Source of the DNA: Candidatus Faecisoma merdavium | GTDB taxonomy: Bacteria; Bacillota_I; Bacilli_A; RF39; UBA660 | DNA: 34,888 bases | Assembly (NCBI GenBank): GCA_018716405.1 | Contig: DVJX01000046.1 | Coordinates: 1 to 34,888 of the forward strand | Direction: 5' to 3' | Shown here: positions 2,980 to 25,067 of the stretch, piece by piece | Position numbering within the stretch: the stretch's first letter is position 1 | Layout of the letters: every line of letters begins with the position of its first letter | Translations under genes and position numbers: made by a program | Notes under the pieces: model-generated | What the model saw: only the letters and a program-made list of their open reading frames with translations | What the model was told of the DNA's origin: nothing | The model's database searches: none

Positions 2980-3006
2980 TTAGCACTCATATATTGACAA
3001 TGCTAA
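2980..3006 (+). promoter_or_regulatory. CIRCE element (HrcA operator)
   Basis: TTAGCACTC-N9-CAATGCTAA against consensus TTAGCACTC-N9-GAGTGCTAA: left arm 9/9, right arm 7/9; directly upstream of hrcA. Confidence 0.88.
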
Positions 3007-3065: not shown

Positions 3066-4058
3066 ATGTTAAATAATAGACAAACTAAATTGCTAAAAAT
3101 TATTGTAGAAGATTATGTTAAAACTGCTAGACCAGTAAGTTCTAAAGCGATATGTGATATTTTAAATTGTTCTAGTGCAACAATAAGAAATGAAATGAGT
3201 TATTTAGAAGAGACTGGATTATTAGAAAAAACGCATATATCTTCAGGTAGAGTTCCTAGTGAAAAAGGGTATCGATATTATGTTGACCATATTTTAGAAC
3301 CTAAAGAATTAACTGGTGAAGATATGTTAAAATTACAAACAATTGTTAATAATTCATCATTAATGTTAGATGACTATATAACTAAAAGTATGGAAATAGT
3401 ATCAGAGATGACAAATTTAACAGCAATAGTTTTAGGAAAATCTTCTAAAGATAATTGTGTTAGTAAAGTAGAGGTTGTTCCTATTAATGAACATAATTTA
3501 ATTGCAATCGTTATAACTGACAAAGGACATGTTGAACATAAAAATTTAACTATCAAGGAAAATGTTTCAATAAATGATATTAAACAAACAGTAGATTTGA
3601 TTAATAAAATGATTATTGGCACACAATTAAATGAGGTAGGTAAAGTATTAGAATATGAGGTAAAACCTATTATTGCTAGATATGTAAAACAACATGAAGT
3701 ATTATACAATGCTTTTTACACAGCATTCACTGATTTTACTAAAGAATCAGTTACAATGACAGGAAGAAAAAATTTATTAATGCAACCAGAATTTAATAAT
3801 GCTGATAAAATAAGAGACATCATCAGTAAATTTGAAGATAAAGAAATAGTTGATAAAATAGAAGAAAATGATAATGGTATCAATATATATATTGGTAGTG
3901 AAACAGAATTTGATGATGATGTAACAATCGTTAAGATGAAATATGAAGCAAATGGTGAAGAAGGAACTGTTGCTTTAGTAGGTCCAAAAAGAATGGAATA
4001 TGATAAAGTTATTGCTTTATTAGAATATATTAAAGAAAATATGAAAGAAGGTAATTAA
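3066..4058 (+). CDS. hrcA: Heat-inducible transcription repressor HrcA
   Basis: 'MLNNRQTKLLKIIVEDYVKTARPVSSKAI...SSATIRNEMSYLEETGLLEKTHISSGRVPSEKGYRYYVD'; upstream CIRCE and grpE-dnaK-dnaJ downstream. Confidence 0.96.
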   Translation: MLNNRQTKLLKIIVEDYVKTARPVSSKAICDILNCSSATIRNEMSYLEETGLLEKTHISSGRVPSEKGYRYYVDHILEPKELTGEDMLKLQTIVNNSSLMLDDYITKSMEIVSEMTNLTAIVLGKSSKDNCVSKVEVVPINEHNLIAIVITDKGHVEHKNLTIKENVSINDIKQTVDLINKMIIGTQLNEVGKVLEYEVKPIIARYVKQHEVLYNAFYTAFTDFTKESVTMTGRKNLLMQPEFNNADKIRDIISKFEDKEIVDKIEENDNGINIYIGSETEFDDDVTIVKMKYEANGEEGTVALVGPKRMEYDKVIALLEYIKENMKEGN

Positions 4059-4059
4059 A

Positions 4060-4710
4060 TTGGAAGAAGAAAAGAAACATCCAGAACATGAAAATCATAA
4101 ACATCATGAACATAAACATGAAGAATGTAAATGTCATGAACATCATGAACATAAACGCGAGGAATGCAAATGCCATGAACATCATGAACATAAACACGAA
4201 GATTGCAAGTGTCATGAACATCATGAACATAAACATGAAGAATGCAAATGTCATGAACATCCAGAGCCACCTCATGAAAAAAGAATTAAAGAATTAGAAG
4301 ATAGTTTATTAAGAAGCAAAGCTGAATTTATAAATTATCGTAAGAGATTAGAAGAAGAACAATCAAGATTATTAAAATATTGTAATGAAGATTTAATTAA
4401 AGAAACATTACCTATTTTAGATAATTTTGAAAGAGCTATTAAAATGGATGATACTAATTTAGATGATGAAGTATCTAAATTCCTATCAGGATTTAAAATG
4501 ATTTATTGTAATTTAGTAAACATTTTAAAAAATTATGGTGTCATTGAAATAGATGGCAACAATAAACCTTTTGATCCAACATATCATGAAGCTATTATGA
4601 CTGAAAAACGTGATGGTGTCCAATCAGGTATGGTACTTGAAGTACTACAAAAAGGTTATATTTTAAAAGATAGAGTTATTAGACCAGCAATGGTTAAAGT
4701 TAGTGAATAA
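4060..4710 (+). CDS. grpE: Nucleotide exchange factor GrpE with a His/Cys-rich N-terminal extension
   Basis: 'EFINYRKRLEEEQSRLLKYCNEDLIKETLPILDNFERAI...GVIEIDGNNKPFDPTYHEAIMTEK...VLEVLQKGYILKDRVIRPAMVKVSE' is GrpE. TTG start. N-terminus is unusual (see findings). Confidence 0.94.
   Translation: MEEEKKHPEHENHKHHEHKHEECKCHEHHEHKREECKCHEHHEHKHEDCKCHEHHEHKHEECKCHEHPEPPHEKRIKELEDSLLRSKAEFINYRKRLEEEQSRLLKYCNEDLIKETLPILDNFERAIKMDDTNLDDEVSKFLSGFKMIYCNLVNILKNYGVIEIDGNNKPFDPTYHEAIMTEKRDGVQSGMVLEVLQKGYILKDRVIRPAMVKVSE
4102..4257 (+). repeat. In-frame tandem repeat, 4 x 39 bp (13 aa: HHEHKHEECKCHE)
   Basis: Four consecutive 13-aa units HHEHKHEECKCHE / HHEHKREECKCHE / HHEHKHEDCKCHE / HHEHKHEECKCHE inside grpE. 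Confidence 0.93.
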
Positions 4711-4720
4711 GGAAAGGTGA

Positions 4721-6540
<1,820 letters not shown>

Positions 6541-6541
<1 letters not shown>

Positions 6542-6586: not shown

Positions 6587-8380
6587 ATGGGAAAATTACA
6601 AAAAACAAGAGATGAAATAGAAACTAAGTATACATGGGATTTAACATTAATCTATAAAACAGATGCATATTTTGAAAAGGATTATGAAAGAGTAAGTAAA
6701 GAAATAAATGATATAACTAGATATAAAGGTATTTTAGTTAAAAATGCTAGTAATTTATTAGGGTATTTAAAATTATCTAATGAATTAGAAAGAAAATTAT
6801 ATAAATTATATTACTATGCTAATTTAAAAAATGATCAAGATACTACTAATACTAAATATCAAGCAATGTTAGGCAAAGTTAAAAATTTATTAACTAAGTT
6901 TGAAGAACTAGATGCTTATGCCCAGCCAGAATTAATGAGTATTGATTATAGTATAATTGAAAAATATTATGAAGAAGAAAAAGAATTAAAAGAATATGAA
7001 TTTGTTTTAAGTAATTTATTTAGATTTAAAAAGCATATTTTATCTAAAGAAGTTGAAGAAGTCTTATCATCTTTAAGTAATTCATTAAATAATAGTAGTG
7101 AAACTTACGAATTATTAACTGATTCAGATATGAAGTTTGGGAAAATATTAGATGAAAATAATGAAGAAGTAGAACTAACAGAAAGTAATTATAGTGTATT
7201 TTTACATTCTAAAGATAGAAGAGTAAGAAAAGAAGCTTTTAATAAGATATTAACTACTTATGGTGAATATAAAAATACTATTAGTTCAACTTTTGCTGGT
7301 AATGTTGATACATTAACAACTTTAGCTAAATTAAAAAAATATGATTCTAGTTTAGAAGCTGCTTTATTTAGTGATAATGTAGATAAAGAAGTATATAATA
7401 ATTTAATTAAAACTGTTAAAGATAATTTAAATGTATTATATAAATATTTTAAATTAAAAAAAGATTTCTTAAAATTAGATGAGTTTCATTTATATGATCA
7501 ATATGTTGATTTAGTAGAAGAAAACACTAAACAGTATACATTTCTTGAAGCTAAAGATTTAGTAATTGAAGCTTTAAGTGTATTAGGTGAAGATTATATC
7601 AAAAATTTAAATAAAGCATTTGATGAAAGATGGATTGATGTATATAATAATAAAGGAAAAAGGGGAGGAGCTTATTCTAGTGGATTTTATGATACTAAAC
7701 CTTATGTTTTATTAAACTATGAAGGCACTATTAATGATGTATCTACTTTAGCTCATGAATTAGGTCATTCTATGCATACTTATTACTCTTGTTTAAATAA
7801 TCCTTACCAATATTCTTCTTACAAAATATTTGTTGCTGAAGTAGCATCAACTGTAAATGAATTATTATTGAATTTTCATTTATTAAATAAAGGAAGTAAA
7901 GAAGATAAAAAATATATTTTAAGTAATTTAATGAATTTATTTAAAGCTACTATTTATAGACAAACTATGTTTGCAGAATTTGAAAGAGATATGCATAATT
8001 TAAAAGAACAAGGTGGCGTATTAACTAACGAAGTATTGTGTGATAATTATTACAAATTAAATTTAGATTATTTCGGACCTGATGTAGTAGTTGATGATGA
8101 AATAAAATACGAATGGGAAAGAATACCACATTTCTATTATAATTTTTATGTTTATAAATATGCTATAGGTTTATCTTGTGCATGTTATATTGTGGATAAC
8201 ATATTAAATAAAAAAGAATATGCTTTAGAAAATTATTTAAAATTCTTAAGTAGTGGAGGATCTGATTATCCAATTAATGAACTTAAAATAGCTGGTATTG
8301 ATGTTACTAAAAAAGATGTTATTGAATCAGCAATTAAAATGTTTGATAATTTTATTGAACAATTTAAAGAACTTATGTAA
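6587..8380 (+). CDS. pepF: Oligoendopeptidase F (M3 family metallopeptidase)
   Basis: 'DVSTLAHELGHSMHTYYSCLNNPYQYSSYKIFVAEVASTVNELLL' has HExxH and M3 context, 597 aa. Confidence 0.9.
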   Translation: MGKLQKTRDEIETKYTWDLTLIYKTDAYFEKDYERVSKEINDITRYKGILVKNASNLLGYLKLSNELERKLYKLYYYANLKNDQDTTNTKYQAMLGKVKNLLTKFEELDAYAQPELMSIDYSIIEKYYEEEKELKEYEFVLSNLFRFKKHILSKEVEEVLSSLSNSLNNSSETYELLTDSDMKFGKILDENNEEVELTESNYSVFLHSKDRRVRKEAFNKILTTYGEYKNTISSTFAGNVDTLTTLAKLKKYDSSLEAALFSDNVDKEVYNNLIKTVKDNLNVLYKYFKLKKDFLKLDEFHLYDQYVDLVEENTKQYTFLEAKDLVIEALSVLGEDYIKNLNKAFDERWIDVYNNKGKRGGAYSSGFYDTKPYVLLNYEGTINDVSTLAHELGHSMHTYYSCLNNPYQYSSYKIFVAEVASTVNELLLNFHLLNKGSKEDKKYILSNLMNLFKATIYRQTMFAEFERDMHNLKEQGGVLTNEVLCDNYYKLNLDYFGPDVVVDDEIKYEWERIPHFYYNFYVYKYAIGLSCACYIVDNILNKKEYALENYLKFLSSGGSDYPINELKIAGIDVTKKDVIESAIKMFDNFIEQFKELM

Positions 8381-8392
8381 GAAGGTGTTGTT

Positions 8393-9478
8393 ATGAAAAA
8401 AGATTATTATGAAATATTAGGAGTTAGTAAGTCAGCTAGTCAAGATGAAATAAAATCAGCTTTTAGAAAACTAGCTAAGAAATACCATCCAGATGTTTCT
8501 AAAGAAGAAAATGCTGCTGAAAAATTTAAGGAATGCCAAGAAGCATATGCTGTATTATCTGATGAAAATAAAAGAAAACAATATGATCAATTTGGTCATG
8601 CTGCATTTGAAAATAATGGTGCTGGTGGTTATGACTTCTCTGGTTTTGATTTTTCAGATATATTTGGGGATATATTTGGTTCAGGTTTTGGTTTTAACTT
8701 TGGCGGTGGTTCTAGAGGTAAATCAAGAGGACGAGATAAAGTTATGCGTGTTGATTTAACTTTTGAAGAAGCTGCTTTTGGTACCAAAAAAACAATTAAT
8801 TTAGATATATATACTGATTGTAGTGAATGTCATGGTAAAGGTGGATTTGATGAAGAAGTTTGTTCAACTTGTCATGGTACAGGTACTGTAGCTGCTGAAC
8901 AAAGAACTTTATTTGGAACATTTATGACAAAAACAACTTGTCCTAAATGTAAGGGTAAAGGTAGATCTTATAAAAAAAGTTGTAGCAAATGTTCTTCTAC
9001 TGGTAAAGTAAAGGTAAATAAAGATATAGAAGTTAAAATACCTGCTGGAGTTGATACTGGCAATCAACAAAGAGTATCTGGTTATGGAGAATATAGTGAA
9101 TATGGTAATGGTGATTTATATTTAGAATATCGTGTATTGCCTCATGAATTATTCCAAAGAGATGGTAATGACATTTATTTAGAAGTACCTTTAACTATTA
9201 CTGATGCAGTTTTAGGATGTAAAAAAGAAATTCCTACTATAAGTGGAAATGTTAAATTAACTATTGAACCAGGAAGTAATACAGGCGATAAATTGAGATT
9301 AAAAGGAAAAGGTATTGAAGATGTTCATAGTTACCGAAAAGGTGATATGTATGTTGTCTTAAATGTAGTTGTTCCAGACAAATTATCACGCGATCAAAAG
9401 AAATTATTTGAACAATTAGCTAAAACTGATTTGGAAACTAAAGAATTTAACAAGTTTAATAATTATATGAAAAAATAA
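8393..9478 (+). CDS. dnaJ: Chaperone protein DnaJ
   Basis: J-domain '[32 protein letters not shown]', G/F region and four CxxCxGxG-type zinc motifs. Confidence 0.97.
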
Positions 9479-13201: not shown

Positions 13202-13636
13202 ATGTTAATTAAAAATATGGCAAAAGAAGATTTAGAAATTTTATCTTATGCAGACTTAACTGAATTGATTTTAAAAGAAGAAAGAAAACCACTAAATACA
13301 CCAACTATATTTAAAAAAATTTGTGATTTATTTAACTATAGTGATGATGAATATACTGATAAAATAGGAGATTTTTATACATCTTTGACTACTGATAAAC
13401 GTTTTGTATTTTTAGATACAAATGAATGGGATTTAAGAGAAAAAAATCCAGTCGACATTGTAATGGATGAAGACGAAGATGAAGATGATGAAGAAATGGA
13501 ATATGAAGAAGATATAGATGAAGAAATAGATGAATATGAAGATGTAGATTCAGTAGTAGATGATGAAATTGATGATGTTGATGAAGATATGGAAGATTTA
13601 GCTATTTTATCTGATGAAGAATTAGAAGAAAACTAG
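13202..13636 (+). CDS. rpoE: DNA-directed RNA polymerase subunit delta
   Basis: 'SYADLTELILKEERKPLNTPTIFKKICDLFNYSDDEYTDKIGDFYTSLTTDKRFVFLDTNEWDLRE' plus a long Asp/Glu-rich C-terminal tail. Confidence 0.93.
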   Translation: MLIKNMAKEDLEILSYADLTELILKEERKPLNTPTIFKKICDLFNYSDDEYTDKIGDFYTSLTTDKRFVFLDTNEWDLREKNPVDIVMDEDEDEDDEEMEYEEDIDEEIDEYEDVDSVVDDEIDDVDEDMEDLAILSDEELEEN

Positions 13637-19240: not shown

Positions 19241-20134
19241 TTAATTATATAATTGTTTTTTAAGTTCTTCCATATTTTGATTCATAATAGTGAAGTAATC
19301 TTGTTTATTACTTATTTCGTTCTCGGTTAAGTTAGTTAGCATATGTAATTTAATTACTTCAATATCAGTATTTTCTATCAAATTATTAATTGTATCATTA
19401 ATTTCATCATATTGCTTAATATAAATATATTTCACTTTTCCTTCATTTATTAAATTTTTAACGGTATCAATTGTTTTTTGTGTTGAATTTTCATTTAATA
19501 CATAAACTGTCAATCCATATTTTTCTTTTGACAAAAAATTAAATACTTCATCATTGGTAACTAATATTTTATTGTCAGCACTATTTGTTAAATCAGCAAA
19601 TCTTGCTCCTAATTTATCTAATTCTTCTTTTAATATGTTAAAATTGTTATCAATGTTTTGTTTTAAATAATAATTATCTATATATTCATCAAATCCTTTT
19701 TTAATATTTCTAGCAATTGTCAACAATCTTGTTGGATCAAGCCAAATTTCTTCTAATCCATAGAATTCATTTTCTAATAGATTATCTGTTGCATTTATTA
19801 TTTTTAAATTTTTGTTATTTTTAAACATTGGTTCAACATATTTTCCTTCATATAACAAAGAATTAAAAATAAACAAATCGGTTTTACTATAATCACTTAA
19901 TTGTTTATCGGTTAATGTATATAATAAATTAGAACATTGTTCACAATTTTCAAGTTGAACATTAACTCCATCAGGATAAATACTTTCTATATTGCTATAT
20001 TCACCATATAATCTTTCTGTTATGTAAGTTATTGGGTAAATGGTTGTATATATGTTTATATTTTCCATATCATCTCTTTTAAAACAACCTGTTAAACATA
20101 AAATACTAAGAAATATTATTAATAATTTTTTCAT
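19241..20134 (-). CDS. ZnuA-like (metal ABC transporter substrate-binding family) lipoprotein, divergent ligands
   Basis: Lipobox 'LCLTGC'; 'IYTTIYPITYITERLYGEYSNIESIYPDGVN', 'EEIWLDPTRLLTIARNI', 'YGLTVYVLNENSTQKTIDTVKNLI' follow the ZnuA/TroA fold order. Confidence 0.72.
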   Translation of the reverse strand: MKKLLIIFLSILCLTGCFKRDDMENINIYTTIYPITYITERLYGEYSNIESIYPDGVNVQLENCEQCSNLLYTLTDKQLSDYSKTDLFIFNSLLYEGKYVEPMFKNNKNLKIINATDNLLENEFYGLEEIWLDPTRLLTIARNIKKGFDEYIDNYYLKQNIDNNFNILKEELDKLGARFADLTNSADNKILVTNDEVFNFLSKEKYGLTVYVLNENSTQKTIDTVKNLINEGKVKYIYIKQYDEINDTINNLIENTDIEVIKLHMLTNLTENEISNKQDYFTIMNQNMEELKKQLYN

Positions 20135-23213: not shown

Positions 23214-23238
23214 AAAGGACACTGAATTAATCAGTGTC
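23211..23238 (-). terminator. Terminator of the ECF sigma/anti-sigma operon
   Basis: GACACTGA(23218-23225)-ATTAA-TCAGTGTC(23231-23238). Minus strand is followed by CCTTTTTA. The anti-sigma stop codon lies in the loop. Confidence 0.7.
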
Positions 23239-24564
23239 TATTTCGTATTCAATAATTTTACCTGTAGTAGCATTTATTTCATAACTATATTCTTTATTAT
23301 TATATTTAAATTCAATTTCATATTTATTATCATCTAGTTCGATTTCACAATTAGTTATATTAGTAACATTAGCGTGATTTAAAGCGATTTGTTTGGCTTC
23401 ATCTTTACTAATTATAGGATTAGGTTCTTTATGATTAGTATCAATAGAATATTTAATTATTTTGCCAGTAGTAGCATTAATCTCATATTCATATTCGCTA
23501 TTATTATAATTAAATTCAATTTCATATTTATTATCATCTAGTTCAATTTTATAATTGGTTATATCAGTAACATTAGCGTGATTTAAAGCGATTTGTTTAG
23601 CTTCATCTTTAGTAATAGTAGAATTATTGCTAGAACTATTATTTGAATTATTAATATATTCTTTATCATCAATTTCGTATTCTATAATATCTCCTGAAGT
23701 AGCATTAATTTCATAATCGTATTCTTTATTATTAGCTTTAAATTCGATTTCATAAACCATAACATCATCAAAATCTAATTCAATTTTATAATTAGTTATA
23801 TTAGTAACATTAGCATGATTTAAAGCAATTTCTTTAGCTTTATCTTCACCAATATAAGCTTTTTGACTAGCACTACCAGTAGTATTTTCATTGTCATTTA
23901 AAATTAAATTTAATTCATTAATAGATAATTCAGCTAATTGATCAAAAGTTAATAAATTATTATTAGTCATTATTTGTTTGATTATTTTTACTTTACCTAA
24001 AGAAATATTATATTGGTTAGCAAAATCAGTTAATTCTTTTTCTTCATTAACAGTTTGACTAATAATTGAAATATTTTCCATATTAATTTGATTTAAAATT
24101 TCTTGTCTTAAAGATTCTGCTTTTTGATTATTATTATTTTCAACTGATATTAAAATTGAATTTGCTAATTCATTAATATAACCATTTTTAACCATAGATC
24201 CAATTAAGGCATTAACAGCTACATTAATATTACTACCTTTTAAATCCATATCACTAATAATTTTTTTACCATCTTCATTATTAGCGATAACTTCTAAAAC
24301 TTTTTCTTTTTGATTAATTTTTAATTCAACGCTTGGATTAACATCGATTCCTACTTTTGAAGTAACTTTATAATTATTATTATAATATAATCCCCCTATA
24401 AATAATAAACATACAACACAAAGTGTACTGATTGTTGCCATAATAGGCAATTTTCTTTTCTTTTCCATATAAACATATCCTTTCTTATCTAAATTATTTA
24501 AATCGAACTTAGGAAGTTTAATATTATTTAAATTTTTATTAATTCTTTTTTCAATGCTATTCAT
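23227..24564 (-). CDS. RsgI-like transmembrane anti-sigma factor with three C-terminal PepSY-like repeats
   Basis: Short basic cytoplasmic segment, TM 'IMATISTLCVVCLLFIGGLYY', RsgI-like 'SKVGIDVNPSVELKINQKEKVLEVIANNEDGKKI', then three 'xxDEAKQIALNHANVTxITNxxIELDDNKYEIEFxYNNxEYxYEINATTGKII' repeats. ATGA overlap with the sigma gene. Confidence 0.82.
   Translation of the reverse strand: MNSIEKRINKNLNNIKLPKFDLNNLDKKGYVYMEKKRKLPIMATISTLCVVCLLFIGGLYYNNNYKVTSKVGIDVNPSVELKINQKEKVLEVIANNEDGKKIISDMDLKGSNINVAVNALIGSMVKNGYINELANSILISVENNNNQKAESLRQEILNQINMENISIISQTVNEEKELTDFANQYNISLGKVKIIKQIMTNNNLLTFDQLAELSINELNLILNDNENTTGSASQKAYIGEDKAKEIALNHANVTNITNYKIELDFDDVMVYEIEFKANNKEYDYEINATSGDIIEYEIDDKEYINNSNNSSSNNSTITKDEAKQIALNHANVTDITNYKIELDDNKYEIEFNYNNSEYEYEINATTGKIIKYSIDTNHKEPNPIISKDEAKQIALNHANVTNITNCEIELDDNKYEIEFKYNNKEYSYEINATTGKIIEYEIDTD
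23230..23853 (-). repeat. Three near-identical PepSY-like domain repeats (about 60 codons each)
   Basis: Approximate units 23230-23412, 23437-23616 and 23665-23853. The first two are the most similar; all share 'ALNHANVTxIT' and 'YEINATxGxII'. Confidence 0.85.
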
Positions 24565-25067
24565 TTTTTTCCCTCCATTGTAAGTTCTTTTAATTTTTTG
24601 ATTGCTCTATGATATTTAGAGAGAGTAGTAGTTATTTTTAAATCTAAAATCTTAGCAATCTCATAAAATTTAAATCCATTCATAGCATGTAAAATGACAA
24701 TATTTCTTTCATCGTCATTTAAATTGTTTAGTAAATATTCTATCAATATTTTATCATCGTGATTAGGTTTAGATATAAATTCAATTTCATCAACATTAAT
24801 TGTTTTTTTATTACTTTTAATTTTATTATAGGCAATATTTTTAGTAATTGTTAAAATCCAAGCCATTGGTTTATTTTGATTTTGATATTTAAAAGCATTA
24901 TGGTAAATTGTGATAAATACATCTTGTGTAACATCTAAAGCATCTTCGTTGTTTTTTAAAATACTAAGAGCAAAGCTATAAATATTATTATTAATTAAAT
25001 TATATAGTTCATTAAATGCTTCAATATCGTTCATTGCAATTCGTTCTAAGTAGTTGCTAACTTCCAT
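24561..25067 (-). CDS. RNA polymerase sigma factor, ECF subfamily
   Basis: 'FNELYNLINNNIYSFALSILKNNEDALDVTQDVFITIYHNAFKYQNQNKPMAWILTITKNIAYNKIKSNK' (sigma region 2) and 'LNDDERNIVILHAMNGFKFYEIAKILDLKITTTLSKYHRAIKKLKEL' (sigma region 4). Confidence 0.92.
   Translation of the reverse strand: MEVSNYLERIAMNDIEAFNELYNLINNNIYSFALSILKNNEDALDVTQDVFITIYHNAFKYQNQNKPMAWILTITKNIAYNKIKSNKKTINVDEIEFISKPNHDDKILIEYLLNNLNDDERNIVILHAMNGFKFYEIAKILDLKITTTLSKYHRAIKKLKELTMEGKK

Follow-up and report, generated by a model that had tools for sequence, protein, structure and literature searches.

Ligand-rich extensions of chaperone proteins

The closest described system is HspA of Helicobacter pylori, a co-chaperone with a His/Cys-rich extension that binds metal, namely nickel, and serves in its sequestration; deletion of the extension leads to lower cell nickel and to higher nickel sensitivity (PMC3856676). 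In E. coli deprived of oxygen, the DnaKJE system is known to guard against the aggregation that copper induces (PMC9040851). The tail of E. coli GrpE transiently enters the substrate groove of DnaK through an IIM motif and drives peptides off (PMC12915176). Metal, zinc and histidine are not mentioned in a recent review of GrpE-like proteins (PMC12987570), and no earlier description of a His-rich or Cys-rich GrpE has been found in the open-access papers searched.

The heat-shock operon and its GrpE

The current analysis concerns a window of 34,888 nucleotides, by which we mean the whole stretch of DNA analysed, from Candidatus Faecisoma merdavium. It encodes an ordinary HrcA/CIRCE heat-shock operon with the gene order hrcA-grpE-dnaK-(oligopeptidase-like)-dnaJ. 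The grpE gene is the single copy of its genome and shares the operon with hrcA and dnaK. The features are as follows.

2980..3006, + strand: CIRCE operator (HrcA site), 2 mismatches against TTAGCACTC-N9-GAGTGCTAA
2994..3022, + strand: promoter TTGACA-17-TATAAT, 12/12 matches, overlapping CIRCE
3066..4058, + strand: hrcA, heat-shock repressor (Pfam HrcA, 1e-46)
4044..4051, + strand: likely (putative) grpE ribosome-binding site AAAGAAGG, 8 bases 5' of the start
4060..4710, + strand: grpE, 216 aa, TTG start (Pfam GrpE, 3.4e-48, residues 72-216)
4273..4707, + strand: coiled coil, helical bundle and beta domain of GrpE, the ordinary core (Pfam, AlphaFold2, Foldseek)
4727..6541, + strand: dnaK, partner Hsp70 (Pfam HSP70, 1.2e-252)
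6587..8380, + strand: oligopeptidase-like metalloprotease gene with HELGH motif, assigned from its sequence alone
8393..9478, + strand: dnaJ with CXXCXGXG zinc domain (Pfam DnaJ, DnaJ_C and DnaJ_CXXCXGXG)

The search for CIRCE gave one match against 0.01 expected by chance. The assignment of GrpE is based on PF01025 (163.9 bits against a cut-off of 25.8), on NF010738, which also scores above its cut-off, and on Foldseek, in which all the significant matches are GrpE or GrpEL1 structures (4ani, E-value 1e-12). The core is predicted by AlphaFold2 with pLDDT mostly above 85, while residues 1-64 are predicted to be disordered (pLDDT below 50). No second Pfam family has been found across the arm that precedes the core.

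The N-terminal arm and its repeat units

The arm is comprised largely of four consecutive units of 13 residues, the consensus of which is HHEHKHEECKCHE.

4060..4281, + strand: N-terminal arm rich in His and Cys (residues 1-74), free of hydrophobic residues past residue 1
4102..4140, + strand: unit 1, HHEHKHEECKCHE, residues 15-27, 13 residues
4141..4179, + strand: unit 2, HHEHKREECKCHE, residues 28-40, 13 residues
4180..4218, + strand: unit 3, HHEHKHEDCKCHE, residues 41-53, 13 residues
4219..4257, + strand: unit 4, HHEHKHEECKCHE, residues 54-66, 13 residues

An earlier sequence-only reading of this DNA had reported four tandem 13-residue units with about two dozen His and eight Cys before the coiled coil. 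The units are borne out at residues 15-66 by Tandem Repeats Finder (positions 4095-4261, period 39, 4.3 copies, 89% match, no indels), and residues 1-74 are counted to hold 24 His and 8 Cys. Residues 2-74 are free of A, I, L, M, V, F, W and Y, and the hydrophobic pseudo-substrate motif exemplified by IIM of E. coli, which is common in GrpE and not a defining feature, is missing from them. Against the composition of the 31 other genes of the window, the content of the arm has binomial probabilities of about 4e-28 for His and about 2e-7 for Cys. The densest 60 residues of GrpE contain 30 His and Cys, compared with 10 in DnaJ, with its zinc domain the next gene of the window in this respect. The composition of the arm is far beyond chance.

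The TTG start is replaced by ATG at the same codon in 8/8 relatives compared, and the 40 bases 5' of grpE, including AAAGAAGG, are almost identical in these eight; translation of the arm is therefore well supported. A wrong start codon is ruled out by the same observations together with the finding that no ATG, GTG or TTG start occurs after the arm and before the core in the window grpE. An antisense reading frame at 4030-4275 on the minus strand, rich in Met and Phe, is an artefact of CAT- and GAA-type codons read in reverse.

The N-terminus of GrpE had been described in the sequence-only reading as normally short and acidic. The tails of the Bacillaceae GrpE compared are acidic and practically without Cys or His; they are not short, being 52-79 residues in length. 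Hence the arm, as judged from this comparison, is best described as an ordinary disordered tail with a replaced composition and not as an insertion before a short N-terminus.

Constraint on the repeat units

Nine genomes of the clade of the window supplied 32 units for comparison, and C-K-C-H is kept in 32/32. The codons of Cys and His vary silently among them, the two Cys being encoded by TGC/TGT in ratios of 19/13 and 7/25 respectively. The pN/pS is about 0.13-0.16, a value obtained from substitutions between units of one protein, the pairs of which are not independent, so that it serves as a description and not as a test. These observations suggest that selection has preserved the ligand residues from species to species, and such purifying selection is consistent with the putative metal-ligand role that had been proposed. 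The number of CKC units is 3 or 4 between close relatives (one genome per species), which agrees with the earlier suggestion of expansion by slippage.

Distribution among related bacteria

A similarity-picked set of 80 related loci has been arranged on a tree built from HrcA, the core of GrpE and DnaK; 69 of the loci fall in a single clade of Bacilli MAGs. Ligand-rich GrpE arms are encoded in 61/69 clade members, the window included (39 Cys, 16 mixed and 6 His), and in none of the outgroup rows. Cys-only, His-only and mixed arms swap on this tree, where at least 5 changes are needed for the mixed label and at least 2 for the His-only one. The His-only arms have 0-1 Cys and 15-27 His and are found in at least two lineages (L009; L049, L053, L057, L058 and L062). 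One named clade member, Candidatus Pelethosoma, is filed under Mycoplasmatota. L015, a MAG titled Actinomycetes, has an HrcA-GrpE-DnaK set lying deep within the Bacilli clade and is probably mislabelled.

Since the 69-member set had been picked by similarity, an even draw of 109 other genomes was taken from the order of the window, an arm with at least 4 Cys or at least 8 His being regarded as ligand-rich. Such arms are present in 42/109. Of the 109 arms, 67 contain 0-1 Cys, one contains 2, none contains 3 and 41 contain at least 4, a gap that is as expected if about four thiolates were required per site. C-x-C placement accounts for 232/286 Cys. On a GrpE tree the trait requires about 21 changes, at least 11 of them on well supported branches, compared with about 34 for shuffled labels; the tree is made of 139 columns and the exact count is accordingly soft. 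The ligand-rich arm is absent from some three fifths of the genomes drawn from the order, which indicates that it is dispensable, and arms with few or no ligands repeatedly take its place.

Outside the order of the window, ligand-rich GrpE arms are encoded in 7/88 genomes of the rest of the class. The GrpE of L306, from another family of Bacilli, has a repeated ESxCCSD with six Cys-Cys pairs and 12 Cys, and this array is clearly an independent invention. Milder CC arms are seen in class mates of L306 (L248, L250, L255, L256 and L263). A further Bacilli genome, L318, encodes a GrpE with an Asn/His-rich arm (10 His) without Cys.

The sequence-only reading had held that relatives without the repeat would point to a strain-specific insertion. 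The close relatives of the window have the repeat, and the search of the wider family has brought out separate Cys-rich or His-rich versions of the arm. A strain-specific insertion is ruled out, the arm being common to relatives.

Uniqueness of the pattern and metal genes of the genome

Within its own genome the dense HxH..HxH..C pattern forms a protein repeat only in grpE, and the C-x-C pair pattern occurs at about 30 places with no Cys-dense protein nearby. In six genomes with Cys arms, a triple C-x-C in a plausible frame is GrpE in 5/6; in the sixth (G037) the GrpE arm departs from this pattern. From these searches the ligand-rich arm is seen to be a feature of GrpE and not of a lineage-wide scatter of Cys and His. 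The only other Cys-dense protein found in the six genomes, and the only other plausible one with the triple C-x-C, is L350, a 258-aa reading frame of genome G114 that holds CDCEICGCDKNSCIC.

The assembly also encodes a metal export cluster.

L358, 759-6107 of the 7487-base contig C69 of the same assembly (binning error possible): ArsR/SmtB-type repressor, small HMA protein and Cd/Zn-type P-ATPase; CsoR/RicR-like repressor, CopZ-like protein(s) and Cu-type P-ATPase

With these repressors, P-ATPases and CopZ-like proteins the assembly is equipped for excess of Zn/Cd and of Cu. The presence of a copper P-ATPase is not associated with that of the arm (Fisher p 0.32). The Zn/Cd-type P-ATPase gives an uncorrected p of 0.009, for which its presence was judged by scores below the cut-off of a model for the copper family, and a median p of 0.63 with the tree allowed for; the link is suggestive and does not go beyond ancestry.

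No match to GroES (Cpn10) has been obtained in the genome (a 91% complete assembly), and there is accordingly no HspA-like GroES tail in it. In this bacterium, protein folding may depend chiefly on the DnaK system.

A ZnuA-type metal-binding lipoprotein is encoded in the window at 19241-20134 on the minus strand (Pfam ZnuA, 1.3e-33), with no transporter partner apparent among the long reading frames listed beside it. Three other genes of the window are described here by their sequence features only: an anti-sigma-like protein with three tandem PepSY-like repeats (KDEAKQIALNHANVT...) at 23227-24564 on the minus strand, an adjoining sigma-factor-like gene at 24561-25067, and a small protein with a long acidic Asp/Glu tail at 13202-13636 on the plus strand, likely the delta subunit of RNA polymerase.

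Potential role of the arm

On balance we lean towards a metal-binding arm that works as a tethered, heat-inducible metal sink, and we infer both the binding step and the sink role. The C-K-C-H of each unit and the neighbouring His would help to coordinate ions of soft or borderline character such as Zn2+, Cu+ and Cd2+, and with two arms per GrpE dimer several metal sites would be available. Heat or metal stress would unfold proteins, HrcA would release the operon and more GrpE would be produced; the arm could then take up loose metal beside DnaK and its unfolded clients in the manner of HspA. Tuning of DnaK by the metal occupancy of the arm is a possible addition to the sink role. The heat-inducible sink is the best-supported mechanism because of the ligand property shared by the arms, the P-ATPase cluster, the role of DnaKJE in copper stress and the precedent of HspA. 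The earlier statement that GrpE is not a metalloprotein cannot be generalised to this lineage, where metal binding is putative.

Metal coordination is favoured over redox chemistry since it is common to Cys-only, His-only and mixed arms, which disulfide formation is not. A thiol switch, in which pairs of arm Cys form disulfides under oxygen and thereby switch GrpE, would suit the many Cys-only arms and the seeming life of these bacteria in the gut, where oxygen would be a stress, and it has a precedent in the proposed Cys87 switch of vertebrate GrpEL2 (PMC12987570). It cannot, however, explain the arms with 0-1 Cys and 15-27 His in at least two lineages, and a purely redox role is made less likely by them. 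C-x-C pairs are poor at forming disulfides and common as metal ligands, a chemistry that also favours metal, and we regard the redox switch as quite improbable. An origin by neutral drift is likewise thought to be decidedly unlikely. It supposes that any polar disordered tail suffices and that slippage of a 39-mer coding for His, Glu, Lys and Cys has filled it with no ligand function; the slippage-prone 39-bp tandem array, with 3-4 units between species, and the many relatives that live without the arm are in line with it. But the low pN/pS and a CKCH that is fully kept despite changing codons are not what one would expect of a polar linker that drifts neutrally, nor does neutral drift agree with the near absence of arms with 2-3 Cys from the draw across the order or with the repeated emergence of unlike sequences (CxC, CC, HxH) in separate clades.

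A different role for bound metal is conceivable, though rather unlikely, in the release of substrates: metal would compact or cross-link both arms, and its level would set the action of GrpE on DnaK. The arm occupies exactly the position from which the E. coli tail acts (PMC12915176), and in the window it has lost the IIM-type motif along with all hydrophobic residues past the first. Runs of two hydrophobic residues are rarer in ligand-rich arms (10/42) than in others (33/67; p 0.009), but this association weakens to a median p of 0.125 with the tree allowed for, and the tail mechanism itself is described in the review as structurally constrained and not directly seen (PMC12987570). In its broader form, held just as tentatively, this would be a recurrently evolved metal-sensing GrpE, whose loaded arm alters the DnaK substrate cycle; it would have arisen in this order and independently in other families of Bacilli, and Cys and His arms would be able to stand in for each other. 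Least of all do we expect delivery in place of storage, with the arm passing Zn to the zinc domain of DnaJ or to unfolded metalloproteins that DnaK has bound as clients. The dnaJ with its zinc domain does share the grpE operon, and a role in supplying the nickel that hydrogenase maturation requires has been proposed for HspA (PMC3856676); but the armless relatives in the order would require another route, and no specific client is indicated.

The tail is the least understood part of GrpE, a universal chaperone cofactor, and it appears to have been loaded repeatedly in evolution with putative metal ligands. If the arm binds metal, a second chaperone machine would stand beside the single precedent of HspA, and the approximately 20 switches between armed and armless states within one order would form a natural set for probing the function of the GrpE tail. 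The metal sink that we favour may combine protein repair and metal buffering in one protein and may be one way in which Bacilli with small genomes handle metal excess. Should the metal-sensing reading be true, metal homeostasis would be tied directly to the control of Hsp70.

Comparison with known systems

Bacterial metallothioneins resemble the arm in their clustered C-x-C and few hydrophobic residues, chiefly with regard to Cys-only relatives such as L032, L034 and L152. No sequence relation to them has been found, and the arm is fused to a chaperone cofactor whereas they are free small proteins. Hpn and the tail of SlyD are also His-rich, low-complexity cytoplasmic arms of metal proteins; the arm of the window differs in its regular 13-residue units, its invariant CKCH and its co-chaperone context. 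Vertebrate GrpEL2 is an exchange factor of the GrpE family for which a Cys-based regulation has been proposed (PMC12987570), but the proposal concerns a single Cys near the coiled coil and disulfide chemistry, and GrpEL2 is mitochondrial.

The ordinary GrpE of E. coli and Geobacillus has the same core fold, operon, partner and position of the tail. The tail of the window protein is His/Cys-rich in place of acidic, and the hydrophobic motif of the E. coli IIM type is missing from it.

The closest likeness is to H. pylori HspA, also a heat-shock co-chaperone in which a universal chaperone bears a lineage-restricted His/Cys-rich tail. HspA belongs to the GroEL/GroES machine, has its tail at the C-terminus and is linked to nickel and NikR control, whereas the present system is that of DnaK and GrpE, with an N-terminal arm and HrcA/CIRCE control. 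The window protein is a GrpE without a GroES domain and is therefore not an HspA, though by analogy its arm may work like the tail of HspA. A metal-storing co-chaperone is already known in HspA; a ligand-rich tail on GrpE is apparently new to the open-access literature.
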